A stretch of DNA of 64,000 bases. It comes from an uncultured Nitrospira sp. Lineage in GTDB: Bacteria; Nitrospirota; Nitrospiria; Nitrospirales; Nitrospiraceae. Numbering within the stretch: the first letter of the stretch is position 1; each line of letters starts with the position of its first letter. Position numbers and translations under genes: made by a program. This document shows, one piece after another, positions 7,518-38,194 of this stretch. The stretch is taken from contig CABVRW010000009.1 of NCBI GenBank assembly GCA_902500785.1, positions 1-64,000 of the forward strand, given 5' to 3'. The notes under the pieces are model-generated. The model saw only the letters and a list, made by a program, of their open reading frames with translations. It was not told the origin of the DNA and did no database searches.

Positions 7518-7541
7518 AGAAGACTGATGGTGATGGTCGGC

Positions 7542-8129
7542 TCAGTCCATGCGCTCGGCTCGTACGACATACCGTAAGGGGCCGCCGGCCTTGATCGCTC
7601 CAAATGGAAAACAGGTCACGAGCACAAGATCCTGTGTGTCTCGTCCCGTCAGAATGACATCACGCCTCGAATCCAGGACCCGCCGCTGAGTGACTCGATA
7701 CCGCAGGGTCGTTCCGTCTCTTCCTGTCAGGTCGATCTGATCATTCAGTCGCACAGCTTTCAAGAAACGGAAATGCGTGTCCCGGTGACCGGTCAGCATT
7801 ACGGTACCCTCCTGCCCGGGTGAGGCGCTGGAGGTCACATGGCCAGGACCGAACGCCAGTGTCCGGCCGTAAGCGCCTGCGAGCACGATCAGGTCCGCCG
7901 ATGGGCGCTGCATGTGAAGGTGCGCGACCGGCCAGGTATCGGCCCAAGGCCAGGGTTTCGGCATCGGCTCTCCCGCCAGGGCGCGGGACCAGGCTCGCTG
8001 CAGGAGAAACTGCGCGAGCCTGGCCTTCGCATAGATCCACGACCCTTCTCCGATCTGCCAGCATCCGACGGCCAGGAGGCTCACCGTCACTATCGCCAGA
8101 AGACGTGTACTCAGACGAGTTCGACTCAT
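7542..8129 (-). CDS. class GN (marine proteobacterial-type) sortase
   Basis: 195-residue membrane-anchored transpeptidase with an N-terminal hydrophobic segment (LLAIVTVSLLAVGCW). The sortase barrel shows the catalytic His in TGHRDTHF, the Cys in LVLVTCFPF and the Arg in GGPLRYVVRA. The arrangement (FGPGH, then LVTCFPF) fits the Gram-negative sortase family, which is normally paired with one dedicated substrate. The start at 8129 overlaps the stop of that substrate gene as ATGA (8126-8129), so the two are translationally coupled. A start 24 nt further upstream is also open. It should cleave the LPKTA signal of its neighbour. Confidence 0.9.
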   Translation of the reverse strand: MSRTRLSTRLLAIVTVSLLAVGCWQIGEGSWIYAKARLAQFLLQRAWSRALAGEPMPKPWPWADTWPVAHLHMQRPSADLIVLAGAYGRTLAFGPGHVTSSASPGQEGTVMLTGHRDTHFRFLKAVRLNDQIDLTGRDGTTLRYRVTQRRVLDSRRDVILTGRDTQDLVLVTCFPFGAIKAGGPLRYVVRAERMD

Positions 8130-10267: not shown

Positions 10268-10320
10268 GTCCTCGTTTCGTATGGTTGATGGTCTGGTGGT
10301 GATGGATGGTCTGCGGACGG

Positions 10321-10351
10321 GCCTGGGAAAGACGGGTCGTCTTTCCCAGGC
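10321..10351. other. perfect 14-bp inverted repeat between two minus-strand genes
   Basis: Two 14-base arms (GCCTGGGAAAGACG and its complement) are separated by three bases, giving a very stable hairpin in either strand. It lies between the OmpA-domain gene and the sortase-substrate gene, both transcribed leftwards. No T-run follows on the minus strand, so it is not a textbook intrinsic terminator. It may attenuate read-through or protect an mRNA end. Confidence 0.6.
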
Positions 10352-10364
10352 GTCGTCCCTGCCA

Positions 10365-11177
10365 TTAATTGCCGTCGGTCGGATCCGAAGCGCCTTCTGC
10401 CGGGTCGGGTGTGGGGGCTGGAAGGCTCTCGTTGAGTGAGTCGGTTTGCTCGGCTTCGATCGGGAGATCGAGGCGGTTTGAGAAGGGATCGGTGACCGGT
10501 TCAGCGGCGAGGGTAGGAACCACCAGGTGTTCCCGGCCCACGTTCCGGAGTTCCAAGTGCACACGACGATTCATCCGTCGACAGACATCGCTGTTGTCGA
10601 GGCAGAGGGCTCCTTCTTCACCCAGGCTGACGGTGCGGATCGCAGTCTCGGGTACACCCAGCGCCATCAGTTGCTGCTTGACCGTCTCCGCCCGCTTCAG
10701 GCCGAGGATCTTGTTGAAGCTCATGGAGCCCTGTTGGTCGGTATATCCTTGGAGGAGGATCCCCCAATCCGGTTCACTCTTGAGAAACTCCGCATGGCGT
10801 AGTAAGGCGGCCTTGCCGTCGTCGCTCAAGCCCTTCCGTCCGATTTCAAATTGAATGTCATCGTGCAGAATGTCCGTACTTCTGGTTGCCAACGGGGCTG
10901 CGTCTACATGTGTCGATGGAATCGGGGCGGAGACCGGCACGTGGTCCGTGGCGTCCTTGAGCACGTGGGACACTTCGACATGGTTGAGAGTCTCTGCCGA
11001 ACGGGTGCTATGGGCTTCCTCGTCTACCTGCGAGTAGTACCAGAATGCGGATACGACGACGGTAAGGAAGAACACCAGCCCGCCGAGGATATAGACGTCC
11101 TTCATGTCTTTATCCGGTCCGACGAGTGTGGGGGTGCCTGGTCCTGCGCTGACGGTAGCTGCGGGTGTCTTGTGCAT
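10365..11177 (-). CDS. OmpA-domain cell-envelope protein with N-terminal membrane anchor
   Basis: 270 residues. A single transmembrane helix lies near residues 28-47 (VYILGGLVFFLTVVVSAFWYY). An OmpA-type peptidoglycan-binding domain spans about 105-220, with the signatures QGYTDQQGSMSFNKILGLKRA (split here: QGYTD, then LGLKRAETVK) and NRRVHLEL. The C-terminal tail is acidic and Pro-rich. An AAGGAG box sits 9 nt before the ATG. It is upstream of and co-directional with the sortase substrate and sortase, with a strong hairpin between. It is inferred to tether the inner membrane to peptidoglycan. The OmpA call is firm; the functional link to the sortase pair is only positional. Confidence 0.85.
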   Translation of the reverse strand: MHKTPAATVSAGPGTPTLVGPDKDMKDVYILGGLVFFLTVVVSAFWYYSQVDEEAHSTRSAETLNHVEVSHVLKDATDHVPVSAPIPSTHVDAAPLATRSTDILHDDIQFEIGRKGLSDDGKAALLRHAEFLKSEPDWGILLQGYTDQQGSMSFNKILGLKRAETVKQQLMALGVPETAIRTVSLGEEGALCLDNSDVCRRMNRRVHLELRNVGREHLVVPTLAAEPVTDPFSNRLDLPIEAEQTDSLNESLPAPTPDPAEGASDPTDGN

Positions 11178-11606
11178 GGTCGTCTGCTCCTTGTGTTACG
11201 GGCCGGTGATCCCGACTCGTTGGTTGTTGATCGATGACTCGACTGCCTGTTCCTGTGGGGGCCGCGCGTAGATGCTCACCTCCTTCCTGCCGGGCCCCCA
11301 CGTTGGTCGGTGCGTAGAGCAAGGCGGAGACCAGACGTTGCCACGCGGCCGAAGAGAAAAAACTGTTGTGAGAACAGCGAGTTATAGAAAACGACTCGAC
11401 GCGAGGGGCCAGCGAGTCATGCGGGGATCAGCGGGGATGCGGGGATAGCCCCGCAGGGACAACATGGTGAAACGGAAGGTCGCGCACCTCATTCCGCGGA
11501 GGACGCCGGAGGGCCTTGCGAGACGTGTGAAGTTGCATAGCACTCAGGTCTGCTCCTGAGGAGGAGAATCCGATTTCGCGTCCAGTCACAGATCGGCAAA
11601 AATGTT
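11178..11606. other. divergent intergenic region with GCGGGGAT repeats
   Basis: A gene-free stretch between the minus-strand OmpA-domain gene and the plus-strand secreted-protein gene. It carries three copies of GCGGGGAT at 11421, 11431 and 11439. The last is part of a small hairpin (GCGGGG-ATAG-CCCCGC, 11439-11454). The repeats could be a binding site. No coding sequence is convincing here. Confidence 0.4.
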
Positions 11607-11634
11607 TTGACGGTGTTCGATGCTGGGGTAACAT
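11607..11634 (+). promoter_or_regulatory. candidate sigma-70 promoter for the secreted-protein gene
   Basis: TTGACG (11607-11612), a 16-base spacer and TAACAT (11629-11634). It points at the gene starting at 11737, which would have a leader of roughly 95 nt. Confidence 0.45.
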
Positions 11635-11736
11635 CGGAAGGCGAGGCAAGGGTGTCGCAGGGTGTGAAGGAACGTAGGGGCCGATGTGCGCAACAGAGGC
11701 TCTTGTACTTGGGGCGCAACATTGAGGAGCCGTTAC

Positions 11737-12549
11737 ATGGTGAAGTTACTCTTATGGGTGTTGGTCGGCTGGCTGGTGATGGTCCAATCGGCGAGTGCAG
11801 GCGAGTATCAATTGGTCATCGGCGAGGGGGTGGACGTATGCGAGACCTGTCAACGCAATTTGGAGCGAATGACTGTGCATCCGGCCTGCGAACGGGACTA
11901 TAGCCGGGAGCTGGGGTTGGGAGCTCCCGAATGGAAGCCGTTCGATGTCCTGGGCCATATTAGCGTGATGGAGCAAGTTCTGACCTACCTGGCGACCGGC
12001 AAGGAGTTCGCTGAGGACCGATCCATCATGAGTGAGGAACAATTCGTCGATACCATACGCAGGATCGGCACAAAGGAAGAGCCATGGGCCTATTGGGCGC
12101 AAGTCGACATCAATAATGAGGGAACGCTAAAGCCCGTGCTCAAACTTCATTCATCGTTCTGTAATCTGAGAGAGGATGGATCCTTCGGTCGAGCCTATTC
12201 CGCTCCCATCGTCGTGCTCAAAGAGAATCTCAGCGGGATAGATCGCGCGATGACGAATCTGGTCATGCAAAATCCCTACAGGACTGGAGATCTGCCGGGT
12301 GAAACCAATTACCAGCTCTACGGGGTATTCAGCTACAAGGGAGAAACCTATTTTGACCGCTGGAATGACGCGGGGAACGAGGATGAGAGTGAGCGCTCGA
12401 CGTTGAGTATCTATGAGTCAAACGGTGACAAGACCAGAAAAGTCTGCCAACTGAAAGAGTTACAGGTCAAAAGGTGGTTCCCCAATAAACCCTGCGCATT
12501 TCGTCACTGTTCCTCGGGAAAGTTAGTCCCTATCAGATTCACGCCCTGA
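11737..12549 (+). CDS. secreted cysteine-containing protein of unknown function
   Basis: 270 residues. The start is set by a GAGGAG box 8 nt before ATG 11737 and by the signal peptide that begins there (KLLLWVLVGWLVM, cleavage near ASAGE). The mature protein has seven or more Cys: an early CETC pair, one soon after (HPACERDY), one mid-protein (SSFCNL) and three near the C-terminus (VCQL, PCAF, HCSS). Disulfides in the periplasm or outside are therefore likely. I do not recognise a family. It stands alone, followed by the decayed methyltransferase end and the toxin-antitoxin pair. Confidence 0.75.
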   Translation: MVKLLLWVLVGWLVMVQSASAGEYQLVIGEGVDVCETCQRNLERMTVHPACERDYSRELGLGAPEWKPFDVLGHISVMEQVLTYLATGKEFAEDRSIMSEEQFVDTIRRIGTKEEPWAYWAQVDINNEGTLKPVLKLHSSFCNLREDGSFGRAYSAPIVVLKENLSGIDRAMTNLVMQNPYRTGDLPGETNYQLYGVFSYKGETYFDRWNDAGNEDESERSTLSIYESNGDKTRKVCQLKELQVKRWFPNKPCAFRHCSSGKLVPIRFTP

Positions 12550-25455: not shown

Positions 25456-26976
25456 ATGCATCTCTTCGGCATCGAAACGGAATACGGTATTACCAGAGAA
25501 GATCTCGACACGGTCGATCCTGTCGAGGAATCGATGGAGTTGGTGCGCGCGCACCTGACCGGGAGCTTTGAACGGCGGTGGGACTATCGAGGCGAAGATC
25601 CGCATGAAGATGCGCGCGGATTCCGTGTTTCTGGCCTGCAGCAGGACAAGGAGGAAGATGACTTCGCCAAGGTCGATGCCCATCGACCGTTTTCATTTCA
25701 TGAGATGAAAAGCGATCTGGTCTTGCCGAACGGCGCGCGGTTTTACAACGACCATACGCATCCCGAGTATTCCACTCCGGAATGTCGTACCCTCAAAGAT
25801 CTTCTGGCACATGATCGGGCAGGAGAACGCATTGTCCAGCGAGCAGCGGATCGCCGCAATCATCAGCTCGGTGGTCCGCACGTGCAACTCTACAAGAACA
25901 ATACCGACTTTCATGGCCACAGTTATGGCTGTCACGACAACTATCTGGTATCGCGCTCATTGCCGTTTCCACAATTGGTGAGTGGACTCATGCCGTTTCT
26001 GGTGAGCCGCCAGCTCGTGGCCGGAGCCGGGAAAGTCGGGATGGAAGCGCAGGAGTCAGGCTTTGTGCCGGGCCCGTTCCAACTTTCGCAACGGGCCGAT
26101 TTTATGGAGGCGGAGTTGGGCGTCGATACGATGCACAACCGGCCGATTCTCAATACACGGGATGAACCGCATGCCGATCGAACCAAGTACCGGCGTCTGC
26201 ATCTGATTCTCGGCGATGCCAATATGTGCGAATATGCGACTGCCCTCAAGGTCGGCACCACCAGACTGGTGTTGGACCTGCTTCAGCGCGGCGGCGCCCC
26301 GAGTCTAGAGTTGGAGCAGCCGGTTGCCGCCATCAAGCAACTCTCTAGGGACCCCGAACTGAAGGCGACGGTGCGATTGAAGGATGGCCGAAGCCTGTCC
26401 GGACTCGCGATTCAAAGGGAGTATTGGAATGCGGTGAGCCGCTGCTGCGCGGGTGATGATCCGGATACCGATTGGGTCTTGCGGGAATGGTCCGAAACCC
26501 TCCGCTTGCTCAGTCAGGATCGAGCACAATTGGTCGGGAAACTGGATTGGGTCACGAAGCAGTGGCTGCTTGAGACGTTTATGCGGGAAGAGCGGCTCGC
26601 GTGGGAAGATCCGTGGCTCGCCAGTTTGGATCTGGAATATCATAATATGAACCCTGACCGCGGACTGTTTCTGGGGCTCGAAGCCGAGGGGAAAACCTGG
26701 CGTATGACGAACGAGCGTGATGTTGCGCAGGCCCTGACTGCCGGTCCGGCGGATACCCGAGGCGGGCTCCGCGGGTTGTGTGTGACTCGGTTTCCGGACC
26801 AGATCACGGGCATGCAGTGGGAGCGGGTACAGTTCGCAGGCGGACTGCGTGCGCGAACGCTTGAAATGGGTGACTTGTTTGAGCCGGAAGCGGTGCAGGC
26901 CTGCGCCGCGTTGTTTGAGGCATCCGCGTCTCCAGCGGATGCGCTGGCGGCGTGGACGAGACGAAAGGACCAATAA
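25456..26976 (+). CDS. dop: Dop, deamidase/depupylase of the Pup system
   Basis: 506 residues of the carboxylate-amine-ligase fold. It begins with the nucleotide/metal-binding IETEYGI. It has the Dop-specific loop signature RWDYRGEDP...DARGF (about 40-55), then NGARFYNDHTHPEYS, LYKNNTD and NTRDEPHAD. The Dop loop and the H-HPEYS segment separate it from PafA. Dop removes Pup from substrates and, where Pup ends in Gln, deamidates it. Here Pup already ends in Glu, so depupylation is the more likely role. It is 102 bp downstream of mpa and 2 bp upstream of pup. Confidence 0.92.
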   Translation: MHLFGIETEYGITREDLDTVDPVEESMELVRAHLTGSFERRWDYRGEDPHEDARGFRVSGLQQDKEEDDFAKVDAHRPFSFHEMKSDLVLPNGARFYNDHTHPEYSTPECRTLKDLLAHDRAGERIVQRAADRRNHQLGGPHVQLYKNNTDFHGHSYGCHDNYLVSRSLPFPQLVSGLMPFLVSRQLVAGAGKVGMEAQESGFVPGPFQLSQRADFMEAELGVDTMHNRPILNTRDEPHADRTKYRRLHLILGDANMCEYATALKVGTTRLVLDLLQRGGAPSLELEQPVAAIKQLSRDPELKATVRLKDGRSLSGLAIQREYWNAVSRCCAGDDPDTDWVLREWSETLRLLSQDRAQLVGKLDWVTKQWLLETFMREERLAWEDPWLASLDLEYHNMNPDRGLFLGLEAEGKTWRMTNERDVAQALTAGPADTRGGLRGLCVTRFPDQITGMQWERVQFAGGLRARTLEMGDLFEPEAVQACAALFEASASPADALAAWTRRKDQ

Positions 26977-26978
26977 CC

Positions 26979-27173
26979 ATGCGATATATGTTGATGCCGG
27001 AACGTCGTGAGGCCCCGGGAGATCCCATGCCGAAACCACCGGGTCCCTCGGAAGAAGGCGGCGGCCCTCGACGGCCAGAAACAGACTCTCCAGATAAGGA
27101 TAATTTGCTGAAGCGGATGCGGAAGGTCGATCCGAAGCAGGCGGAGCGGTATCGGCAACGAACGGGAGAGTGA
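26979..27173 (+). CDS. pup: Pup-like ubiquitin-like tag (UBact)
   Basis: 64 residues, intrinsically disordered in composition: Pro/Glu/Gly-rich at first, then a basic helix-prone stretch (LLKRMRKVDPKQAERYR). It ends in RQRTGE. A terminal Gly-Glu is the activated form attached by PafA to lysines. Because Glu is encoded directly, no deamidation by Dop is needed. It matches the description of UBact, the Pup relative of Nitrospirota and other Gram-negatives (ending R-T/S-G-E/Q). Starts at Met4 or Met6 are also possible. It lies between dop and prcB in actinobacterial order. Confidence 0.9.
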   Translation: MRYMLMPERREAPGDPMPKPPGPSEEGGGPRRPETDSPDKDNLLKRMRKVDPKQAERYRQRTGE

Positions 27174-27255
27174 GGGGATGGTAACGGGTAAGGCGTCCGG
27201 TGGTCGGTCAGAGTCTGATCGCTTGACGATTCATGATTCACGAGGGGTTGGTGTC

Positions 27256-28032
27256 ATGGGGATGCAAGGAGACTTTTTCCAGCTCTTGAAAGAGCAGGGG
27301 TATCAATTCGGCAATCCTGTTGCGGCCGCAGCCGGAATGGATGTTCCAAACGCCACCACGATTCTCGCGTTGAAGTATCGCGATGGCGTACTGGTCGCGG
27401 GCGATCGCCGAGCGACGGCGGGGAATATGGTGATGTATGACCGCACCGACAAAGTGTTGGAGATTGATCGTCATAGCGTGATGGCGATCGCGGGTGTGCC
27501 GGCGACTGCGTATGAGATGGTGCGGGTCCTGGAACACTCGTTCAAATACTACCGGCGCACGCAACTGCAGGAGCTGAGTTTTGAAGGGAAGCTTCGAGCC
27601 GTGTCCAAGCTGCTCAAGGAGAATGTGCCGGCCGCGTTGGCAGGGACCGGTGCCGTCGTCCCGGTGTTCGCAGGGTACGACCATGGACAAGAGACTGCGA
27701 AGATTTATTTTTACGATATTTTAGGGGCTGAATTTGAGGCCGTCGAGTATGCCGTTTCCGGTTCGGGCTCGCCGACCATTCGAGGCATCCTCCATTATGT
27801 GAATACATGGGGTCCGCAACCCTTGGCGAGTCTCCCTGAAGAACAGGCTACGATCCAGGCGCTTCGGCTCCTCACGAGCGCGGCGGAGTTCGATTCGGCC
27901 ACCGGTGGGGTGAATCGGGAGCTGAATCTCTATCCGGTCGTTAAACTCATCACCTCCGCCGGCGTGCAGACCATTGCGGATGCCGATTTGAAACGATTGT
28001 ATGAGCGCGAAGTGGTGCGTGGGCGCGAATAA
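27256..28032 (+). CDS. prcB: 20S proteasome beta subunit
   Basis: 258 residues from 27256, a start supported by a GAGGGG box; the frame is also open from 27178. A 33-residue propeptide precedes the catalytic Thr (NA|TTILALKYRDG), which leaves a 225-residue mature subunit. Counting from that Thr, Asp17 (VAGDRRAT) and Lys33 (DRTDK) are in place, so it is an active N-terminal nucleophile protease. SGSGSPTIRG fits the conserved later motif. It forms the two inner rings of the core, with PrcA outside. It lies 82 bp after pup and 43 bp before prcA. Confidence 0.94.
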   Translation: MGMQGDFFQLLKEQGYQFGNPVAAAAGMDVPNATTILALKYRDGVLVAGDRRATAGNMVMYDRTDKVLEIDRHSVMAIAGVPATAYEMVRVLEHSFKYYRRTQLQELSFEGKLRAVSKLLKENVPAALAGTGAVVPVFAGYDHGQETAKIYFYDILGAEFEAVEYAVSGSGSPTIRGILHYVNTWGPQPLASLPEEQATIQALRLLTSAAEFDSATGGVNRELNLYPVVKLITSAGVQTIADADLKRLYEREVVRGRE

Positions 28033-28075
28033 ATGAAAGGCAGGATAGTGAGCCCTATGTTGAAGGTGACACGTT

Positions 28076-28915
28076 ATGTATGAGGAACCCTATCGGTGGA
28101 TCGAAGCGGTCGGCAATCGACGTCAGTATCTCGATGAGCAATTTTCGAAGGGCTCGCCGGTTGTGGCCCTGGCGTATGCCGATGGTATTCTGCTGCTCAC
28201 CGTCAGTCGGGGGACACCCAAACTCTACGAGGTATACGATCGCATTGCGCTTGGCGGAATGGGACACCCGGCTGATTTGGAAAAGTTGCGCTTCTCTCTG
28301 CTGGAGATGGCCCATGTCGAGGGGTTCAACCGGTCGCCGTCCGATGTCACCGGCGCACGTCTCATGAAGTATGGGCTGGCGCCGACCATCAAGCAGGCCT
28401 TTGAAGAGATTTACAAAGCGCCCTTTATCGCGAAAATTTTACTCGCTGAATTAGGTGTGAAGCCGGAGCGAGACCTGTTCCTGACGATCAACTACGACGG
28501 AAATTTCGAGGAGAGCCGAGGCTGGGCTTCAATAGGAGCGACGTCCGCCGTTCAAATCCGGATGCGGCGCTATTTTGAATCGCACTCTGCGTTGGCGCAG
28601 ACCTCGTTGGCGCAGGCTATCGACACGGCCCTTTGCGCTTGGGCCGTGGGCTCTTTGGCTCAAGCTGCGTCAGAGGCCTCGGCTGGAGAACCTTCCGCGG
28701 AGCAGGGGTCGGAACCGAGGACGGAAGGGGACGCGTCTGGAATGCCTGACAAGGCCGCTCTCTTGGCGCATGTGCGGCAGACCGTCGCTGAGAAGCCGGT
28801 GGAATGCGTCCTGCTGGAACGTCGTGGACCTGGTTCCGCCAAGTATCGCGCGCTCCGATCTGACGAACTGGGTGCGCTGCTGCCGCCCGCGGTCAGCGCA
28901 CCGCCCACGAGCTAA
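28076..28915 (+). CDS. prcA: 20S proteasome alpha subunit
   Basis: 279 residues. The proteasome alpha fold spans about 1-195 (VVALAYADGILLLTVSRGTPKLYEVYDRIAL is the core, here given as ADGILLLT and LYEVYDRIAL). No catalytic Thr is present, as expected. The N-terminus (MYEEPYRWIEAVG) is the likely gate. A ~80-residue C-terminal extension follows that is rich in Ala/Ser/Glu and ends in a Pro/Ala tail; it is longer than usual for the subunit. The start has an AAGGTGA box. It forms the outer rings that bind Mpa. The pafA ATG begins 1 bp after its stop. Confidence 0.92.
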   Translation: MYEEPYRWIEAVGNRRQYLDEQFSKGSPVVALAYADGILLLTVSRGTPKLYEVYDRIALGGMGHPADLEKLRFSLLEMAHVEGFNRSPSDVTGARLMKYGLAPTIKQAFEEIYKAPFIAKILLAELGVKPERDLFLTINYDGNFEESRGWASIGATSAVQIRMRRYFESHSALAQTSLAQAIDTALCAWAVGSLAQAASEASAGEPSAEQGSEPRTEGDASGMPDKAALLAHVRQTVAEKPVECVLLERRGPGSAKYRALRSDELGALLPPAVSAPPTS

Positions 28916-28916
28916 T

Positions 28917-30407
28917 ATGCTGAATCGAATTTTTGGACTCGAAACGGAGTACGGCCTCCTAGTAAATCAGGATCGGCCCGACCACTCCCCGTCCTGGGTT
29001 GCCCAGCGCATTCGGGATCACATTTTTCATGTCGATCGGCGAGGGGTCCTCGATCTTCACCATCGTGGCCATGATGAACCGCCCGGCAACGGAGGATTTT
29101 TAACCAATGCGGGCCGCATCTATATCGATATGGGCCATCTGGAGTATGCCTCTCCGGAGTGCACGACCCTTGCGGATCTTGTGGCATCTGATCGCGCTGG
29201 AGACCGGATCATTCAGAATGCCGTGACGGCCTTGGGGTTGGACGAGACCGTCTCGCTCATCAAGAATAATATCGATCATGAAACCGATGCGACGTTCGGG
29301 TCGCATGAGAACTACCTGGTCACGCGGCAATTTCCCTTCTCCCGGCGTGGGCTCGGTCCGCTGGTGACGTTCCTCGTCACCCGTCAGGTATTCACCGGTG
29401 CCGGGCGAATCGGATGTGCGAGTGATCCGAACGAATGGGTGCAAGTCGGCGGGCTCATCTTGCACCGGCCGGGACTGCGCGATGCCGTAGATCGATCGAT
29501 TGTGCCGTTTCAGATCTCCCAACGGGCCGACTACATCGTCAACGACTTCTTTGAATGGGTGCAACACAATCGGGCGATCGTCAACACGCGCGACGAACCG
29601 CTGGCCGATCCCAATCACTATCGCCGAATCCACCTGCTGTGCGGGGATTCGAACATGGCTGAGTATGCCACGGCCCTCAAGATGGGGACCACCGGTTTGG
29701 TGTTGCAACTGATCGAGGCGGGGCAGGCTCCGCGTGGGCTGGGGATCAGCGAACCGGTCGAGGCGCTGCAGGATATCTCCCGCGATCCGGATCGTCAGTG
29801 GATCGTTCGATTGGAGTCGGGGCAGTCGATGTCCGCCGTCGACATTCAGGAGCAGTTCCTCGCCGCGGCCCAGCGTCATTGCAAGGGGCAGGACGAAGAG
29901 ACGGATTGGGTGTTGGCTCAATGGGAAGCCGTGCTGACGGATTTGCGTGGCGGGTATGAAAAACTAGTCGGCCGGATCGATTGGGCTTCGAAGCTGTGGC
30001 TATTGGAGACCTATCGAGATGCAGAACAGGCGGCCTGGGACGATCCTATGTTGAAGAGTCTCGATCTGGAATACCACAATCTGCATCCCGAACGAGGGCT
30101 CTGCTACGGCCTCGAGGAGGAAGGGCGGGGGCTTCGGCTGACGACCGACAAGATCGTTCATCTGGCGCAGGACCATCCGCCGCGCAACACGCGGGCATTT
30201 GGACGCGGTGAATTGGTCCGGCATCTGCTGGCCGGCGGGGGCGGGGGAATCGTGACGGAGGTCCCGCTCGACTTCGACGACCAGATGGCCTGCGAGTACA
30301 TCATCAACTGGTCGAATTTCAAATTGCGGGGAGCCGCGCCGTTTTTTATGGCCGATCCGTTTCAGACCTATGCGCAGGATGTGCGCACTCACCTCGCCGC
30401 TCGATAG
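28917..30407 (+). CDS. pafA: PafA, Pup--protein ligase
   Basis: 496 residues. It opens with FGLETEYGL, the ATP/metal-binding segment. It then has NAGRIYIDMGHLEYASPEC, SLIKNNIDHETDATFGSHENYL and NTRDEPLAD, and ends with the C-terminal lysine-recognition domain (NFKLRGAAPFFMADPF). It lacks the Dop loop and has the PafA-type C-terminus (W-x-NFKLR...DPF). It attaches the C-terminal Glu of Pup to substrate lysines using ATP. The real start is 28917, 1 bp after prcA. It closes the six-gene set and converges on an unrelated minus-strand gene 7 bp away. Confidence 0.92.
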   Translation: MLNRIFGLETEYGLLVNQDRPDHSPSWVAQRIRDHIFHVDRRGVLDLHHRGHDEPPGNGGFLTNAGRIYIDMGHLEYASPECTTLADLVASDRAGDRIIQNAVTALGLDETVSLIKNNIDHETDATFGSHENYLVTRQFPFSRRGLGPLVTFLVTRQVFTGAGRIGCASDPNEWVQVGGLILHRPGLRDAVDRSIVPFQISQRADYIVNDFFEWVQHNRAIVNTRDEPLADPNHYRRIHLLCGDSNMAEYATALKMGTTGLVLQLIEAGQAPRGLGISEPVEALQDISRDPDRQWIVRLESGQSMSAVDIQEQFLAAAQRHCKGQDEETDWVLAQWEAVLTDLRGGYEKLVGRIDWASKLWLLETYRDAEQAAWDDPMLKSLDLEYHNLHPERGLCYGLEEEGRGLRLTTDKIVHLAQDHPPRNTRAFGRGELVRHLLAGGGGGIVTEVPLDFDDQMACEYIINWSNFKLRGAAPFFMADPFQTYAQDVRTHLAAR

Positions 30408-30414
30408 ACATTGC

Positions 30415-31335
30415 CTATCGCCTGAGTCCTACGCGTTCCAGCGCCCCTTTCGAGACATCGAACGCAACGCGCAGTTGCACCGCGAAGTATTTCTGGACCA
30501 GGCCGGATTGATCCAACGGTCGGTCTTCCTCCCGATAGAACGCCACTTCCATATCGTTCCAGCGGACGGCAATCCCGATGATCCAATCGAGTTCCGAGGG
30601 GTTGAGGGTATTGCTTGCTTCACGGTCGGTGAAGAAGTTCATATCCCCGTACAGCACCACCTTATTCTTGTACATATCCAGGTCGGCATGGGCCACGTAT
30701 CGGAACAGCGCGCGGCCGGTATTGTTCGGGCGCGAAAAGTATTGGCTGTTGTGGAAGAGCCATCCCGCGCCGGCATAGGCCGTGAGATTTTGGTTGGGGA
30801 GGGTACGTCGCCACAAGGCGGAGTCCTGGATGGCTTGGAAACGCGCCGTCACCAGCGCATCGGCGTAAGCCTGTTTGAGGCCACGGCGGTCCAGTGGGGC
30901 ATCACGTTCGTACTGCAGGCGCCAATTGAACCGATCGAGGACGCCGGTGAACGCAAAGGTGCCGTCCCATTCCGACAGTTTGATCCATCCGTCGGTGCGG
31001 TCCGAGAAAAAGTTCTGATCGGTGTAAAACGTGAGGTATTGCTTATAGAGGTCCGTTTCCAAGTGCAGCATGTGCCGCATGCCGACGAGTCCGGTATTGT
31101 CGGGTCTGGCGGCGAACGTCGGATTTTTTACGAAGGCACTGGTCAGCAGATAGCCGCCGAAGAGCGTTTCCTCTTCTTCGCGCGTTTCATGTTCCGGGTC
31201 ATCCATCGCAGGGAGTGGGCGCCCGTACTTTTCAAGTCCGAAGGCGGGCTCCGAACAGAGGGCGAGGAGCGGCAGCAAGCCGATCAACAACACCAGCCAA
31301 TGCGGGCCAGGACTGGCTGGTCGACGGGTCGTCAT
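30415..31335 (-). CDS. two-repeat outer-membrane beta-barrel-like protein
   Basis: 306 residues. The start at 31335 is set by an ATGA overlap with the preceding lipoprotein gene (31332-31335). A signal peptide (HWLVLLIGLLPLLALCSEPAFG) precedes the mature protein. The mature part contains two homologous ~100-residue repeats (about 55-165 and 190-300). Each runs from a Phe/Arg-Pro-x-Asn-Thr-Gly stretch (ARPDNTGL; SRPNNTGR) through a DMYK/DLYK strand, then QNFFSDR/MNFFTDR, ending APLDRRGL.../RPLDQSGLVQKY. Alternating hydrophobic-aromatic strands look like a beta-barrel. I do not recognise the family. Confidence 0.72.
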   Translation of the reverse strand: MTTRRPASPGPHWLVLLIGLLPLLALCSEPAFGLEKYGRPLPAMDDPEHETREEEETLFGGYLLTSAFVKNPTFAARPDNTGLVGMRHMLHLETDLYKQYLTFYTDQNFFSDRTDGWIKLSEWDGTFAFTGVLDRFNWRLQYERDAPLDRRGLKQAYADALVTARFQAIQDSALWRRTLPNQNLTAYAGAGWLFHNSQYFSRPNNTGRALFRYVAHADLDMYKNKVVLYGDMNFFTDREASNTLNPSELDWIIGIAVRWNDMEVAFYREEDRPLDQSGLVQKYFAVQLRVAFDVSKGALERVGLRR

Positions 31336-31730
31336 TTTGGGCAATTGGCGAAGATCGCTTCGCAATCGTTTGAAGCGTCGACTGAACTCGGCACAAAACG
31401 ATACCGAACCTGATCGACTCGTTGGTCTTTGAGCACGACGGTTGCCCAACAGCCGTGATGCACGGTGGGAAGGCTGCTCTTCGAGGACACCATGGACTCT
31501 TCGAGCAGGGGGGCCTCTTTGTAGTACCGGAGCAAGGTGACCGTTCCATCCTCACGCTCCTGGAGCGGTGTTCCAGCCCAGGCCAGCACCAGTGCCCTGC
31601 TGGTGCCTCGCAGGGTTTGTTGATGAGGATAACCTTCGGTGACAGGTGGAACGCTTTGGCAACCCAGCATGCAACCGGCAAGCAGGGTGTTCAGAATCCA
31701 GAGGTGATCTCGAATGTGAAGAGGGCGCAT
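31332..31730 (-). CDS. small lipoprotein, unknown function
   Basis: 132 residues from Met at 31730, chosen because the lipoprotein signal begins there (LWILNTLLAGCMLGCQS). Either of two lipobox-like sites (LLAGC, MLGC) could be lipidated. The frame stays open 68 codons further upstream, but that part lacks export features. The mature protein resembles a short beta-rich domain (LVLAWAGTPLQEREDGTVTLLRYY, WATVVLKDQRVDQVRYRFVPSS). Its stop overlaps the start of the two-repeat barrel protein as ATGA, so the two are likely partners in the outer membrane. Confidence 0.65.
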   Translation of the reverse strand: MRPLHIRDHLWILNTLLAGCMLGCQSVPPVTEGYPHQQTLRGTSRALVLAWAGTPLQEREDGTVTLLRYYKEAPLLEESMVSSKSSLPTVHHGCWATVVLKDQRVDQVRYRFVPSSVDASNDCEAIFANCPK

Positions 31731-32183: not shown

Positions 32184-32419
32184 AAGCTTCGAGTATGGGA
32201 TGTTTATGACCGACGCTGTGTGCCAATCCTGAGGCCGTGCGTGTCGTCAATCCTTCCTTGTCCGATCATCCGACATCCTCCCGAGACCGTGGAATCGTTC
32301 GTGCGCTTGCAAGAGTTCAGCCTCGTCTTGAGCTCGACCTGTGAGTGAGCGGCGCGGGCCACATGTATTCACTACAGTGCTGTGTCATGCTCAGCACTCA
32401 CTTTGGCGGGAGGAATCGT

Positions 32420-35152
32420 ATGTCGGACCATGTCGCTGCGCGCAATGAGAGTATGTCTGTGACCGGCCTGCTGGGGCAGGAAGACAGTCGGCAATCTTCC
32501 GTATCGGCTCGAAAGAAAACCGGCGATGCTTGGTCCCTCTCCATTGCCGAGCGGCGAGCCTCCCGCCGACTCGACACTCGCGTTTCAACAGTGCTTCGCT
32601 TCCAGGATCAGACGTGGATAGGACTGACGAAGAGTTTGAGCCTGGGGGGACTTTCGATGGACTTCACCGAGGAAGTCCCTGCGATGCTGAACCAGCAGAT
32701 TTTGTTGAGTCTCGATTCCGACGCCGGTCGGCTTGAGAGTGCGGGGATTGTGTGCGGCCTTCGTGGGTTCGAGGAGAGGCTCGGTTCAGGCCATATGCGA
32801 AGAGGGGTGACACTGGCTATCCAGTTCGTCCGTTTGAGCGCCGGTGATGAACAGGTGGTGGCATCATGGCTGAGCGAGGGACGAGTACGTTCAAGCGGGT
32901 TGCGCCTTGCCGCCGCGTTGGTCGCGCAAGACAGTGAGGATGCCCTTCTTGATGCCGCCTCTCACTTGTCGGTGGTTTCGCCGGCCTCGCGGCCGTGTGT
33001 GACGCGGGCGCCCGAGCGGCCACGTCAGGAGCGCCGACGTCAGCAGCGGGTGACGGTTGGATTGAGCACTGAAGTCAGCCTCAAACATCGAGCCGGTGAT
33101 CGACTGGTGGCCGGTGCGGTGACGACAGACTTGACGCCGAACGGAGCCTGTGTGCGCCTGTCGGCTGAAGAAGATTTGCTGGGGTCGGAATTGGAACTGC
33201 GCTGGATGACATCAAGCGCCGCCCAGGGCGCGTCACCTGCGTCCCTGTCTGCCGCAGCCTGCTCCGTGGTGGGCGAAGTGGTATGGACAAGGCCGGGGGA
33301 AGCCGAGGTTCGTTCTGGTGGCGTGCAGGTGAGTGGTCGGACTGTCTTGGCGGGCGTGCGATTCTTTCCGGTCGCAAAGGAAGCGGAAGATATCATTGAA
33401 CAGCTGCTTGGGCAGATGCCGGGGACGGGCATGGCCGGCAGGGAGAATGGACCGTCTGTCATCAGTGAATTCTCCGACTGTGTCCGGCCGTCCGGCCTTC
33501 GCATCGCGTTGTGTCACGATCGACCTCAATCGGATCTGTCGAACGACGCGCCGATCGTGGTGCTGGCTCCTGGGTACGGAGAGAGCAAGCGCGATTATGT
33601 GCCGCTGGCCTATTACCTCGCCGGCAATGGGTTTCATGTCGTGCGTTTCGACAATGTGAATCATGTCGGAGAAAGCGACGGGCTGGCCACGCAATTTCGG
33701 TTAGAAGATATGGAAATCGATTTGGAAACCGTGCTGGAGCATGTGGCGGCTCAATGGCCCGGTCGTGCCATCGGGCTTGTGGCTACGAGTCTGGCCGGTC
33801 GCGTCGCCCTGAAGGTCGCGGGGCGAGTGCCTCATCTGAACCTGCTGGTCCTGATCAACGGAATCATGGACGTCCGGCATACGTTGCAGGCCGTGCATCA
33901 AGAAGATCTCATTGGGGAACATCTGGCCGGTATGCGCAAAGGCGTGGTCAATATTCTCGGCCTGACCATCGATGCGGATCGCTGGCTGGAGCACGCCGTC
34001 CAGGGCGACTATGCCGATTTGGCCACCACCCAGCGAGATGCCGCGCGCGTACGAACTCCGGTCGTGCTGTTTCACGCCGAGCAGGACGCCTGGGTCGATT
34101 CGTCGTCCATCGATGCCGTGGGCGAGGCGATGGGGCCGTATCTCCGTCATTCGTATGTGGTGCCCGGCGCATTGCATCGACTGCAGGAGAGTCCCCGGAA
34201 GGCCCGCACGGTCTATCGTCAAATCGCCCTGTGTTGCCAACAGGAGTTGTGGCCGAAACGTCGCACGGAACGGATGGTCGAACCTTCACATCGAGAAATC
34301 GGTGTGCAAAACCGGACTGAGCGTGAGCGGAGCAAGAAGCGCCGGTCGATGGGCAAATCGGATCACGTGGCATTTTGGCAAGAGTACCTGCAGAATTTTC
34401 AGACGATTCCGAATGTCGCTGATTTCTGGCGCCTCATGGATCATGTCTATCGCCTGATGGGCGACTGCCATAATGGTGAACGGATCTTGGATGCTGGGTG
34501 TGGCAATGGTAACCTCGGTGTGTTCCTTCAACTGAACCAGGCGTTTCGGCAACGGTATGCCCGTCGCGGCGACTTTCGCTCGCCTGACTATGTCGGGGTC
34601 GATTTTGTGCCGACGGCTCTGGCCCAGGCGAGGATCAACTTCGAGCAGGTCGGTGCGGCGCTACAGGGGCAATTTTATGAGGGGCTTCGGGCCTATGTTC
34701 CGATGTCGATGCGGGTGTGTCGAGCCGATCTGGAGTCCCCCCTGCCGTTTCCTGATCATTCCTTCGATCGAGTCGTATGCAATCTGGTCATTGGGTATGT
34801 ACGCGACCCCCTCTTTACCTTGCGCGAGTATCTGCGTGTGTTGGCGCCTCACGGTCGGTTGGTGGTGTCCAACTTGAAACCCTATGCGGATCTCTCGGCG
34901 ATTTATCGCAGCTTTGTCGAAACGGTTCAGACGCCGGACCAAGTCGAAGAAGGTCGTCGTCTCCTCGACAATTCTGGTAGAATCAAGGAGCGCGAAGGCG
35001 AAGGCATTTTCCATTTCCACTATCAGGCTGAATTGGAAAGCTTGTTGCGCGCGGCGGGTGTCACTCATCCCCAGGTCTATACCACATTCGGGAACCAAGC
35101 TCTCATTGCCGTGGCCGACAAGGGCCTGGCGAATCTGACGGTCGCCGCATGA
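32420..35152 (+). CDS. PilZ-PilZ-alpha/beta-hydrolase-methyltransferase fusion protein
   Basis: 910 residues from the ATG at 32420, which follows a GGGAGGA box. Four modules in order. PilZ 1 (about 45-155) begins with RRASRRLDTR. PilZ 2 (about 205-330) begins RRRQQRVTV and has DLTPNGACVRLS. An alpha/beta hydrolase (about 355-620) has the nucleophile Ser near 455 in GLVATSLAGRVAL, an Asp near 551 (HAEQDAWVDS) and a His near 584 (GALHRL); the elbow resembles acyl-transferase/thioesterase types. A SAM methyltransferase (about 640-910) has LDAGCGNGNLG. PilZ arginine motifs suggest c-di-GMP control. The substrate is unknown and may be a lipid or acyl chain. A membrane histidine kinase follows 33 bp later. 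Confidence 0.88.
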   Translation: MSDHVAARNESMSVTGLLGQEDSRQSSVSARKKTGDAWSLSIAERRASRRLDTRVSTVLRFQDQTWIGLTKSLSLGGLSMDFTEEVPAMLNQQILLSLDSDAGRLESAGIVCGLRGFEERLGSGHMRRGVTLAIQFVRLSAGDEQVVASWLSEGRVRSSGLRLAAALVAQDSEDALLDAASHLSVVSPASRPCVTRAPERPRQERRRQQRVTVGLSTEVSLKHRAGDRLVAGAVTTDLTPNGACVRLSAEEDLLGSELELRWMTSSAAQGASPASLSAAACSVVGEVVWTRPGEAEVRSGGVQVSGRTVLAGVRFFPVAKEAEDIIEQLLGQMPGTGMAGRENGPSVISEFSDCVRPSGLRIALCHDRPQSDLSNDAPIVVLAPGYGESKRDYVPLAYYLAGNGFHVVRFDNVNHVGESDGLATQFRLEDMEIDLETVLEHVAAQWPGRAIGLVATSLAGRVALKVAGRVPHLNLLVLINGIMDVRHTLQAVHQEDLIGEHLAGMRKGVVNILGLTIDADRWLEHAVQGDYADLATTQRDAARVRTPVVLFHAEQDAWVDSSSIDAVGEAMGPYLRHSYVVPGALHRLQESPRKARTVYRQIALCCQQELWPKRRTERMVEPSHREIGVQNRTERERSKKRRSMGKSDHVAFWQEYLQNFQTIPNVADFWRLMDHVYRLMGDCHNGERILDAGCGNGNLGVFLQLNQAFRQRYARRGDFRSPDYVGVDFVPTALAQARINFEQVGAALQGQFYEGLRAYVPMSMRVCRADLESPLPFPDHSFDRVVCNLVIGYVRDPLFTLREYLRVLAPHGRLVVSNLKPYADLSAIYRSFVETVQTPDQVEEGRRLLDNSGRIKEREGEGIFHFHYQAELESLLRAAGVTHPQVYTTFGNQALIAVADKGLANLTVAA

Positions 35153-35185: not shown

Positions 35186-38100
35186 ATGAAAGTGCTCGCA
35201 TTCAGCGCGCTGGTGAATGCGTTGGCGGCGACAGGGCTCGGAATGTTCGTGTATTTCCGGGATCCTGCCGCTCCACGCAACCGGATCTACGGGCTGTACT
35301 GTCTGAGCATCGCGTTTTGGAGCATTTTCTACTGCGGCTGGCAGCTCACCGAGTCCAGGGATCTTGCACTGAGTCTCCTGCGGTTGGTGATGGCCGGCGC
35401 AGCCCTCATTCCGATCCTGTACTTTCATCATACCGTTACCTTTCTTGATATTGCGGCGCGTCATATCAAAGCGTTGAAGATCGGCTATGGACTGGCCGCG
35501 TTGTTTCTGCTGGTCGATACGACGCCCTGGCTCGTGGCGGATGTGCATCCTGCCATGTCGTTCTCCTTTTGGCCGGTCCCCGGCCCTCTCTTTCATCCCT
35601 TCCTGCTGTATTTTCTCTGGTATGTCGTTTATGCCACCTCGCTCGTGGGTGTCGCGCTTAGAGATGCCAATGGAATTCGGCGCCATCAATATGCATACAT
35701 GCTGGCCGCCAGCATCATCGGGTATGTAGGCGGGGCCACGAATTTTCCTCTCTGGTATGGCGTGCCGCTCCTGCCCTACGGGACGGTGCTCATCACGATG
35801 TATACGGCGCTGATGGCGTATACGATCGTTCGGTATCGCCTGATGAACATCAGTGTCGTGCTGAACAAGGGCCTCGGATACGCCATTGTGCTGGCGATTA
35901 TCGTGGTGGCCACCTCCATCGGTGCCGTCCTCAGTAATCGTGCAACCGGGCATTCTACGCCTCCGTTGTTGGCCGGAACGCTGTTTCTGATCTGTGCGCT
36001 ATGGGTGCTCAGCAATAACCCTCGCTCTACCTCCAATACGATCTTCAGCGCTGTGTGCGGGGCTGCCTGCCTGTGGTTATTCGGCTGTTTCATGCTGTTT
36101 TCCGCATCCCGTGAGGACGAGGCGCTCTTCTGGGTGCAGGTCATTTATACCGGGGTGGTCTTTCTACCCGCCCTGACCTATCACTTTGCGCAGAGTCTCG
36201 CCGGGGTGGCTGCGCATGATCGCCTGATCATGTGGAACTATGCCGTCGGCGCGCTCTTTTGGAGCCTATTGTTCACGCCCTATCTGGTGGACGGTCAGTA
36301 TGTCTACTATTGGGGCCGATATCCCAAGGCCGGGGTGCTTCATCCATGTTTGGTGGCATACGTGGTCGCGGGCGGGGGCATGACGGTCTATCGGCTGTAT
36401 CAGGGCTATCGACTCCACCTGAGTTCATCACCTCTCCTCGGCGCCCAGCTGAAATATACCGTTGTGGCTCTCGCATTGGGATTTCTGGCCTGTCTGGATT
36501 TTCTCCAGAATTATGGTGTGGGTTTCTATCCGGTCGGATACTTGCTGGCAGGTCTTTCCGTCACCGTCGTGGCCTATGCCATCGCTCGATACGAATTGAT
36601 GGATGTGTCGTTCGTTCCGAGCCGCCCGAAAGTGATGCTGTCGATCAAGCTGATGGGGCTGATTCCGGCCTATATGATGATCCTGCTCGTCATCAGAATT
36701 TTTACCGGGACGTTCCACTATCTGCTGGCTGGAGTGCTCTTTGGCTTGTTCGTCATCGTCTCCAGTGGTTTGGCCAACCTTCAGAAGGGGGTCGAGCGAG
36801 CGATCGGGCAGACCTTGTTTCGGGAGCGGTATGATGCCTACGATACCTTGGTGCAATTTTCCAAATCGCTTGTGGCGATTCTGGAACTGAAATCCCTCAC
36901 GAAAGAAATCGTGCAAACGCTCGCGCGCGTGATGAACATTAAGACGGCGTCTGTCTATGTGCTCGACAAGGAGCAAGGCATCTACGGTTTGACCGCATCT
37001 TATGGATTCGCGACCCGTGATGCGATTGTGCCTCCGATCAAGATGGAGGGGGAGTTTCCCAGGACCCTCCTGCGAACGGAGACGGCCCTTGTCCGAGAGG
37101 AAATCGAATACGACAAGGCCGATAGGGACTATCTGCGCTTGCTCGACACCTTGAAAGGCTTGGAATCGGAGGTCTGTATTCCGTTGATCAGTAAGGAGCG
37201 GCTTGTCGGATTCTGCAACTTAGGGCGCCGGTCCAATCATGGCATGTATTCCACCGAGGAGTTGGCCCTCCTCAAGACGTTGGCACAACATGCCGCGATC
37301 GCGATCGACAACGCCTTGTTGTATGAGGATCTTCGCCGATCCCAACTGTTGATGCGGCGTACCGACCGGTTACGATCACTCGAAACCATGGCCGGCGGGT
37401 TTGCCCATGAAATTCGAAATCCGTTGACCTCCATCAAGACCTTCGTTCAGCTGGCCCCTGAGCGACGGGACGATGTGGAGTTTATGGAGCAGTTCAGCCA
37501 GGTGGTGTGTGAGGACGTGGAGCGGATTGAGCGGCTGGTCCATGAGATTTTGGATTACGCGCGTTATATGACGCCGAAGCTCACGCAAGAAAATCTTAAC
37601 GACGTGGTGTCTTCCTGCCTGTATTTCATCGAGGTAAAGGCGAGCAGCAAGGCGATCACGATCGAGAAGGAGCTGGCCGGAGACCTGCCCTTTGTCAAGC
37701 TGGACCGACAGCAAATCAAGCAGGTCCTGCTGAACCTGTTCATCAATGCGATGGAGGCGATCGGAGGCGATCAGGGCGGCCGCCTGTCCGTGCGCACGCG
37801 CAAACTCGTCAAGCCGATGAATGAGCCGTGGGTTCAGATTGAGGTCGAAGACAGTGGGCCGGGGATCGATCCTCAGGATCTGGACCATATCTTCGATCCG
37901 TTCTATACCACCAAGCACGAAAGTGGGGAGCGAGAGGGTACGGGATTGGGGCTCACCATTGCCCACCAAATCGTGCAGGAACATGGCGGATATGTCGAGG
38001 TCTCCAGTGATGTCGGTCATGGCACGAAGTTCATGGTGAATCTTCCGGTCAATCCACCCTTGGCCGAGTGGCAGGCCGCACAGCCTGCGTATGAGGATGG

Positions 38101-38194
38101 TAGACGACTTGCCGGAGCGTTTCTTGCTCGGCCTCATCTAGGATTAGATGAACAGTTCGGCAAGCCGCCTTCGGTGATTAAGGCCGGCGGCTGA
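35186..38194 (+). CDS. large membrane histidine kinase with multi-helix sensor and GAF domain
   Basis: 1002 residues. Two successive blocks of transmembrane helices fill about 1-260 and 270-540. They resemble HisKA_7TM-type sensor modules, apparently in duplicate. A cytoplasmic GAF domain follows at about 555-715 (VQTLARVMNIKTASVYVLD, ALLKTLAQHAAIAIDNALLYEDL). A HisKA domain has the phospho-accepting His near residue 740 (FAHEIRNPLTSI). A HATPase domain closes it (NLFINAMEAIGG, EDSGPGIDP, GTGLGLTIAHQI). No response regulator is adjacent, so it is an orphan kinase in this window. It lies 33 bp after the PilZ fusion and is probably co-transcribed. Confidence 0.9.
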   Translation: MKVLAFSALVNALAATGLGMFVYFRDPAAPRNRIYGLYCLSIAFWSIFYCGWQLTESRDLALSLLRLVMAGAALIPILYFHHTVTFLDIAARHIKALKIGYGLAALFLLVDTTPWLVADVHPAMSFSFWPVPGPLFHPFLLYFLWYVVYATSLVGVALRDANGIRRHQYAYMLAASIIGYVGGATNFPLWYGVPLLPYGTVLITMYTALMAYTIVRYRLMNISVVLNKGLGYAIVLAIIVVATSIGAVLSNRATGHSTPPLLAGTLFLICALWVLSNNPRSTSNTIFSAVCGAACLWLFGCFMLFSASREDEALFWVQVIYTGVVFLPALTYHFAQSLAGVAAHDRLIMWNYAVGALFWSLLFTPYLVDGQYVYYWGRYPKAGVLHPCLVAYVVAGGGMTVYRLYQGYRLHLSSSPLLGAQLKYTVVALALGFLACLDFLQNYGVGFYPVGYLLAGLSVTVVAYAIARYELMDVSFVPSRPKVMLSIKLMGLIPAYMMILLVIRIFTGTFHYLLAGVLFGLFVIVSSGLANLQKGVERAIGQTLFRERYDAYDTLVQFSKSLVAILELKSLTKEIVQTLARVMNIKTASVYVLDKEQGIYGLTASYGFATRDAIVPPIKMEGEFPRTLLRTETALVREEIEYDKADRDYLRLLDTLKGLESEVCIPLISKERLVGFCNLGRRSNHGMYSTEELALLKTLAQHAAIAIDNALLYEDLRRSQLLMRRTDRLRSLETMAGGFAHEIRNPLTSIKTFVQLAPERRDDVEFMEQFSQVVCEDVERIERLVHEILDYARYMTPKLTQENLNDVVSSCLYFIEVKASSKAITIEKELAGDLPFVKLDRQQIKQVLLNLFINAMEAIGGDQGGRLSVRTRKLVKPMNEPWVQIEVEDSGPGIDPQDLDHIFDPFYTTKHESGEREGTGLGLTIAHQIVQEHGGYVEVSSDVGHGTKFMVNLPVNPPLAEWQAAQPAYEDGRRLAGAFLARPHLGLDEQFGKPPSVIKAGG

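Follow-up and report, generated by a model that had tools for sequence, protein, structure and literature searches.

The window, a stretch of 64,000 nucleotides of Nitrospira DNA, contains one gene that joins two PilZ domains, an alpha/beta hydrolase and a SAM methyltransferase and that directly precedes a sensor kinase gene. This raises the question of what such a protein makes, and whether the kinase has a part in it. Nitrospira are nitrite oxidizers that live in soils and, in wastewater plants, in flocs and biofilms.

Architecture and conservation of the four-module protein

The gene is translated as a stop-free frame of 910 amino acids (32420-35152, forward strand; Table 1). In 23 of the 29 Nitrospira genus genomes it is a single open frame that spans both catalytic domains; G021 and G022, which belong to these 23, lack most of the second PilZ domain and the linker. 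Other copies contain an in-frame stop (G009), are broken into two overlapping frames (G020), or are fragments at a contig edge (G002); in G007, G023 and G025 the genus search found a paralogue alone, with no orthologue of the 910-residue gene. The first-pass annotation had reported the single frame and warned of a frameshift joining separate genes. Because the frame is kept intact in most of the genus, a frameshift or fusion artefact is rejected, and the four-module gene is a real coding sequence kept by most Nitrospira species. The domain order it proposed, PilZ-PilZ-hydrolase-methyltransferase, is borne out by Pfam and a whole-genome PilZ search, and likewise the absence of a named family for this order: no NCBIfam model matches the protein, all matches being far under cut-off. 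Searches recovered the LuxD-methyltransferase core in several phyla and, throughout the genus, the four-module form. Among the named genome contigs scanned, the closest relatives are from Nitrospira, including Candidatus N. defluvii, and a plasmid collection yielded only partial matches of one domain each. No strict match to a sigma-54 promoter is present in the window, where ~0.3 would be expected by chance. Just upstream lie genes for bacterial proteasome subunits and two members of the Pup-ligase family (Dop- and PafA-like; 25456-30407), followed by a 347-residue frame (30370-31413) that has no Pfam or NCBIfam matches.

The hydrolase module is assigned to Acyl_transf_2 (PF02273; 78.6 bits against a gathering cut-off of 20.3), with Hydrolase_4 also matched. 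Among solved structures its best profile match is LuxD of V. harveyi (1THT; E 1e-36), with the elbow and the acid and histidine regions aligned, and 1THT is also the best fold match of an AlphaFold2 model of the 910-residue protein (mean pLDDT 73, ~90 through much of the hydrolase). Both results agree with the acyl-transferase/thioesterase character that had been proposed for the nucleophile elbow, the second through the structure prediction that had been called for. LuxD is the myristoyl-ACP thioesterase of Vibrio, a lux-specific acyl transferase. Ser457, Asp556 and His586 are invariant in 18 diverse active relatives, down to 35% identity, in the core alignment, and again in a second alignment of 20 diverse active relatives; the complete triad foreseen in the first-pass annotation thus stands, with its numbering (Ser ~455, Asp ~551, His ~584) off by two to five residues.

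The methyltransferase region (residues ~684-826; E 1.6e-14) is matched by several class-I methyltransferase models in Pfam. Its motif I is invariant in the diverse active relatives aligned with the 910-residue protein and intact in every triad-intact locus, except for a variant form in two f8 loci. The invariance of the triad and the SAM motif over large divergence in the window's clade indicates that catalysis is under selection there.

Both PilZ domains that had been claimed as c-di-GMP-type exceed the Pfam cut-off (E 2.3e-15; 34.4 and 31.7 bits against 22.5). RxxxR is kept in each. The second motif of PilZ-1 is S-x-S-x-G-G rather than the expected (D/N)xSxxG, and that of PilZ-2 is DxTxxG (DxSxxG in some orthologues), so the suspicion that the domains might lack all binding residues does not apply. 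A more distant relative (L079) has canonical binding motifs in both domains. At the N terminus of the proteins from other Nitrospirales lies a PilZ remnant with neither motif (profile-profile probability 94%, E 8e-8), and in the Verrucomicrobia and Deltaproteobacteria loci no recognizable PilZ was detected with the LuxD-methyltransferase core. As PilZ is missing or motif-less in many relatives, c-di-GMP gating is predicted to be an accessory of some lineages, found in part of the family and not essential to the LuxD-methyltransferase unit.

Table 1. Positions of the enzyme, its catalytic residues, the partner kinase and related fusion genes (window positions unless a locus is named).
Feature	Position	Strand	Basis
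Putative ribosome-binding site GGGAGG, 6 bp 5' of ATG	32408..32413	+	Sequence
PilZ-PilZ-LuxD-like hydrolase-SAM methyltransferase, 910 aa	32420..35152	+	Open frame; Pfam; one frame in most of genus
PilZ domain 1; RxxxR kept, SxSxGG (D/N to S)	32549..32872	+	Pfam; whole-genome PilZ search; motif reading
PilZ domain 2; RxxxR and DxTxxG	33029..33409	+	Whole-genome PilZ search; motif reading
LuxD-type alpha/beta hydrolase (Acyl_transf_2), residues 367-603	33518..34228	+	Pfam E 6.5e-22; 1THT E 1e-36; top fold match 1tht
Nucleophile Ser457 codon (ATSLAGR elbow)	33788..33790	+	Invariant in active relatives; aligned with LuxD ASLSAR elbow
Triad Asp556 codon	34085..34087	+	Invariant in active relatives
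Triad His586 codon	34175..34177	+	Invariant in active relatives
Class-I SAM methyltransferase (Methyltransf_31), residues 684-826	34469..34897	+	Pfam; motif I LDAGCGNG, residues 690-697
Partner sensor histidine kinase, 1002 aa: two HisKA_7TM stretches, GAF, HisKA, HATPase	35186..38194	+	Pfam; start 33 bp past enzyme's stop codon
Kinase first HisKA_7TM domain, putative ligand-sensing part	35213..35851	+	Pfam E 4.1e-18
Kinase GAF domain	36884..37309	+	Pfam
Kinase HisKA and HATPase_c	37382..38053	+	Pfam
PilZ-KAS III fusion	L084:4243-5841		
PilZ-KAS III fusion	L163:9936-11519	-	
PilZ-KAS III fusion	L161:8622-10175	-	
PilZ-KAS III fusion	L162:154-1749		
Catalytically dead paralogue, REC-PAS-PilZ-PilZ-LuxD-methyltransferase	L039:862-5094 (contig C55)		

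The partner kinase and its associated enzymes

The next gene encodes a sensor kinase with matches to HisKA_7TM (PF16927; 66.5 bits against a cut-off of 28.6), HisKA (46.7 bits) and HATPase (96.4 bits). HisKA_7TM is also mentioned in literature on archaeal two-component systems. LuxD-methyltransferase loci were compiled from named genome contigs and 296 phylum genomes, with duplicates removed and contig labels used as given. A HisKA_7TM kinase is the next gene in 57 of the 61 non-redundant triad-intact loci (one of which, from Elusimicrobia, is split over two frames with its Ser not read), mostly overlapping the enzyme gene or within ~230 bp of it. Another kinase type follows in two f8 loci, one locus meets a contig end, and one has no kinase within 2.4 kb. 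Besides Nitrospirota, the core is found in contigs labelled Nitrospinota, Verrucomicrobia, Elusimicrobia and Deltaproteobacteria, all four of which share the order of enzyme then 7TM kinase (these are MAG contigs and the labels may err). The link to the next-encoded kinase put forward in the first-pass annotation thereby extends to several phyla.

No response regulator lies beside the kinase in the window. Four loci (L070, L073, L074 and L079) combine an intact enzyme and 7TM kinase with NtrC and REC-HD-GYP genes; a REC-PAS module is fused in L070 and L074, encoded upstream by a gene of its own in L073, and missing in L079. The enzyme modules and the 7TM kinase of L079 form one 1666-residue frame (6888-11885), the junction of which may be a sequencing frameshift. 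Elsewhere, a divergent PilZ-hydrolase-methyltransferase gene adjoins a hybrid kinase gene and an acyl-CoA dehydrogenase gene (L136:7204-11486, reverse strand).

The methyltransferase and a full-length 7TM kinase are also kept in loci with no working hydrolase, either through replacement of the nucleophile Ser by Asn (L084) or through deletion of the hydrolase (L138/L163). Orthologous PilZ-KAS III genes, the copies 46% identical, are inserted between methyltransferase and kinase in these loci, and the L084 protein has the Cys-His-Asn residues expected of KAS III. This gene is present in none of the intact-hydrolase loci and in only 3 of the 296 phylum genomes. In L161 and L162 it overlaps the gene of the 7TM kinase, and the stretch read contains no LuxD-methyltransferase gene (L162 starts close to a contig end). 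Both binding motifs are present in the PilZ domains of the KAS III proteins. Judged from sequence, PilZ-KAS III directly before or near 7TM kinases apparently replaces the LuxD-methyltransferase or its hydrolase half.

Genes upstream of other 7TM kinases were read in a convenience sample of matches to the first 7TM domain of the window kinase; since the NCBIfam matches are sub-cut-off, the enzyme names are family-level guesses. They comprise PilZ-methyltransferases (L202, L204, L223) and a plain methyltransferase (L205), a thioester-reductase-like NAD_binding_4 enzyme (L210), HMG-CoA reductases with PilZ (L213) and without it (L208), a KAS II-like enzyme (L217), an aldehyde dehydrogenase (L219), and acyl-ACP-reductase-like enzymes (L214, L215, L221, L222; L221 by Pfam only). 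Both HMG-CoA reductase genes (L213:5684-7504; L208:5674-7044, reverse strand) overlap or abut the kinase gene. TENA/CADD-like genes (L206, L207) are less close to the synthase pattern, or off it, and the upstream genes in L209, L211, L216 and L218 are outside it. Several other Nitrospirales have a HAD-type gene of similar size 200-400 bp ahead of a second 7TM kinase, again less close to the pattern or off it (L194:5965-6714, reverse strand, L195, L196, L198 and L200; Pfam-tested in L194). As a control, ~24 other kinase ORFs of the window's own genome had no acyl enzyme upstream in that one genome; their upstream genes encode response regulators, transporter or secretion components, TPR proteins, one glucanotransferase and unknowns.

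The same genome contains a second locus (C55; L039/L147) encoding a REC-PAS-PilZ-PilZ-LuxD-methyltransferase in which the nucleophile Ser is replaced by Asp and the triad Asp and His are lost. Downstream of it are genes for a GAF kinase that lacks 7TM, for an NtrC-type activator and for a REC-HD-GYP protein, the HD-GYP motif of this locus having GNP in place of GYP. This dead paralogue occurs in all 29 genus genomes and, as the only copy, in many other genera; those relatives examined from other genera of the family are dead as well. Across 19 degenerate loci, including two side branches, the kinase is ~425-485 residues long and lacks 7TM, and in L086 the kinase's 7TM domain is reduced to a 73-residue remnant. 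Triad loss maps as a single change on a quick tree with long branches, so the enzyme/7TM correlation is one contrast and not a set of independent repeats; co-loss as several independent events is rejected. The operon type of L070, L073, L074 and L079 may resemble an ancestor from which, in Nitrospira, an active pair (in the window) and a dead regulatory set (C55) later separated.

Comparison with known systems

The window hydrolase and LuxD (1THT; NF052253) have a common fold, triad spacing and non-GxSxG elbow, but the window hydrolase is fused to PilZ and methyltransferase domains. It is not a LuxD orthologue, because the protein scores 80.1 bits against the 420-bit curated cut-off of NF052253. 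None of the lux operon partners (luxC, luxE, luxAB) was found by Pfam among the neighbouring genes, which are the kinase and unrelated genes instead, and a role in light emission is rejected. The Ralstonia phcBSR operon includes genes for a SAM methyltransferase and a sensor kinase, yields a methylated hydroxy fatty acid (PMC8578825, PMC11960443), and has its PhcS phospho-His at residue 230 (PMC11960443). The likeness to PhcB-PhcS drawn here is one of arrangement, with a methyltransferase gene adjoining a sensor kinase gene, as in the 57 triad-intact loci with a 7TM kinase and the two more with another kinase. To our knowledge, PhcB is described as a methyltransferase only, with no fused hydrolase or PilZ.

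In LuxM/LuxN and CqsA/CqsS, an autoinducer synthase that uses acyl thioesters is encoded beside a polytopic sensor kinase; LuxM and CqsA are of synthase families other than that of the window enzyme. The Rpf/DSF system (RpfF, RpfC, RpfG) combines a thioesterase-made fatty acid signal, a kinase and an HD-GYP regulator with c-di-GMP coupling, and relatives of the window gene also carry REC-HD-GYP. RpfF has a crotonase fold and, as far as we know, no methyltransferase or PilZ; the window synthase, in contrast, combines an alpha/beta hydrolase with a methyltransferase, and the synthase itself would be the target of c-di-GMP. PrsK/PrsR of the XrtA/PEP-CTERM system (TIGR02916/TIGR02915) resembles the window kinase in its polytopic-GAF-kinase layout and the NtrC-type regulator of relatives. 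Membership in PrsK/PrsR is rejected, with scores under both cut-offs (146 bits against 300 for the window kinase with TIGR02916). By analogy, the window pair would on the best reading work like phcBS, luxMN or cqsAS, with membership in none of them claimed. In the part of the literature searched, no description was found of such an enzyme or of a fatty-acid-derived signal of this kind in Nitrospira, and no match for a PilZ-fused HMG-CoA reductase or KAS III or for a Nitrospirota autoinducer synthase.

A proposed synthase-receptor pair and its alternatives

The window gene product is best explained as a synthase, gated by c-di-GMP, of a molecule that is derived from an acyl group, probably methylated and read by the partner 7TM kinase, an explanation that as a whole we give a probability of roughly 0.52. 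Its domains point to an enzyme that probably releases a fatty acid and subsequently methylates it, with c-di-GMP in control; the first-pass annotation had already thought c-di-GMP-gated production of a methylated lipid or signal plausible. The hydrolase half of this bifunctional synthase would release the fatty acid, and the fused methyltransferase would then methylate that product, in the simplest form to a methyl ester, as PhcB does. Binding of c-di-GMP to the two PilZ domains would set synthase activity, and the product would be sensed by the 7TM domain of the next-encoded kinase and signalled onward by phosphotransfer. In relatives, the NtrC-type activator and REC-HD-GYP protein of the same operon could close the loop back to c-di-GMP. 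The basis of this proposal is the domain content, the intact catalytic residues, the enzyme-kinase adjacency, the loss of 7TM in the dead clade and the exchange of the hydrolase for another acyl enzyme. From these we infer the substrate, which of the two reactions comes first, control by c-di-GMP and the product as kinase ligand: the acyl step and methyl transfer because of the enzyme families, the ligand because of adjacency, co-loss and replacement. The single change behind triad loss, the many relatives in which PilZ is absent or motif-less, the Ser in place of D/N in PilZ-1, the f8 loci with another kinase, the upstream genes of L209, L211, L216 and L218, and the lack of a response regulator in the window count against the synthase-receptor model.

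The same domain evidence and adjacency would fit equally well an enzyme that makes or edits a membrane lipid or acyl metabolite in a structural or metabolic role, with the 7TM kinase monitoring membrane or lipid state for homeostasis instead of communication; the metabolic HMG-CoA reductase and aldehyde dehydrogenase upstream of related kinases also favour it. However, several different acyl enzymes have a 7TM kinase of the same type as their partner, and kinases next to a dead enzyme lack the 7TM domain, as expected if the product is the ligand, and we regard homeostasis as unlikely. More doubtful still is that the enzyme domains serve above all to regulate or to bind ligands within a signalling complex with the kinase, catalysis being secondary. 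Such an arrangement would be clearest in the dead REC-PAS-PilZ-PilZ paralogue; in its favour are the presence of this paralogue throughout the genus and alone in many other genera, and the kinase, NtrC and REC-HD-GYP genes after it in the loci read; against this stands the invariance of the triad and SAM motif across the window's divergent clade.

Hydrolysis and methylation might also destroy or mask an acyl signal, making the enzyme a quencher or attenuator beside the receptor. A LuxD-like fold could serve as an esterase and methylation can inactivate signals, but a KAS III or KAS II ketosynthase in the same slot fits synthesis and not degradation, which leaves this role improbable. That separate genes with no joint function were fused by chance or artefact is scarcely credible; the unusual domain order speaks for it and nothing further, whereas the LuxD-methyltransferase fusion is kept across several phyla and the four-module form is conserved genus-wide.

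For the synthase-receptor pair, the near-constant pairing of enzyme and membrane sensor kinase suggests an undescribed fatty-acid-based signalling system. It is conceivable, at somewhat less than an even chance, that it belongs to a broad undescribed class of acyl-thioester-consuming synthases, often PilZ-gated, each encoded directly before a HisKA_7TM(-GAF) kinase that reads its product. The synthase slot would be exchangeable (LuxD-methyltransferase, KAS III, KAS II, acyl-ACP-reductase-like enzyme, thioester reductase, HMG-CoA reductase or methyltransferase), the dead REC-PAS copy would now be a cytosolic regulator in Nitrospira, and the class would form a lipid-signal family in which c-di-GMP directly controls signal synthesis. 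If true, Nitrospira would have a concrete synthase-receptor pair, c-di-GMP would intervene where the signal is made, by way of PilZ domains joined to the acyl enzymes, and a simple gene-context rule (an acyl enzyme directly before a HisKA_7TM kinase) would find more lipid-signal systems in uncultured phyla.
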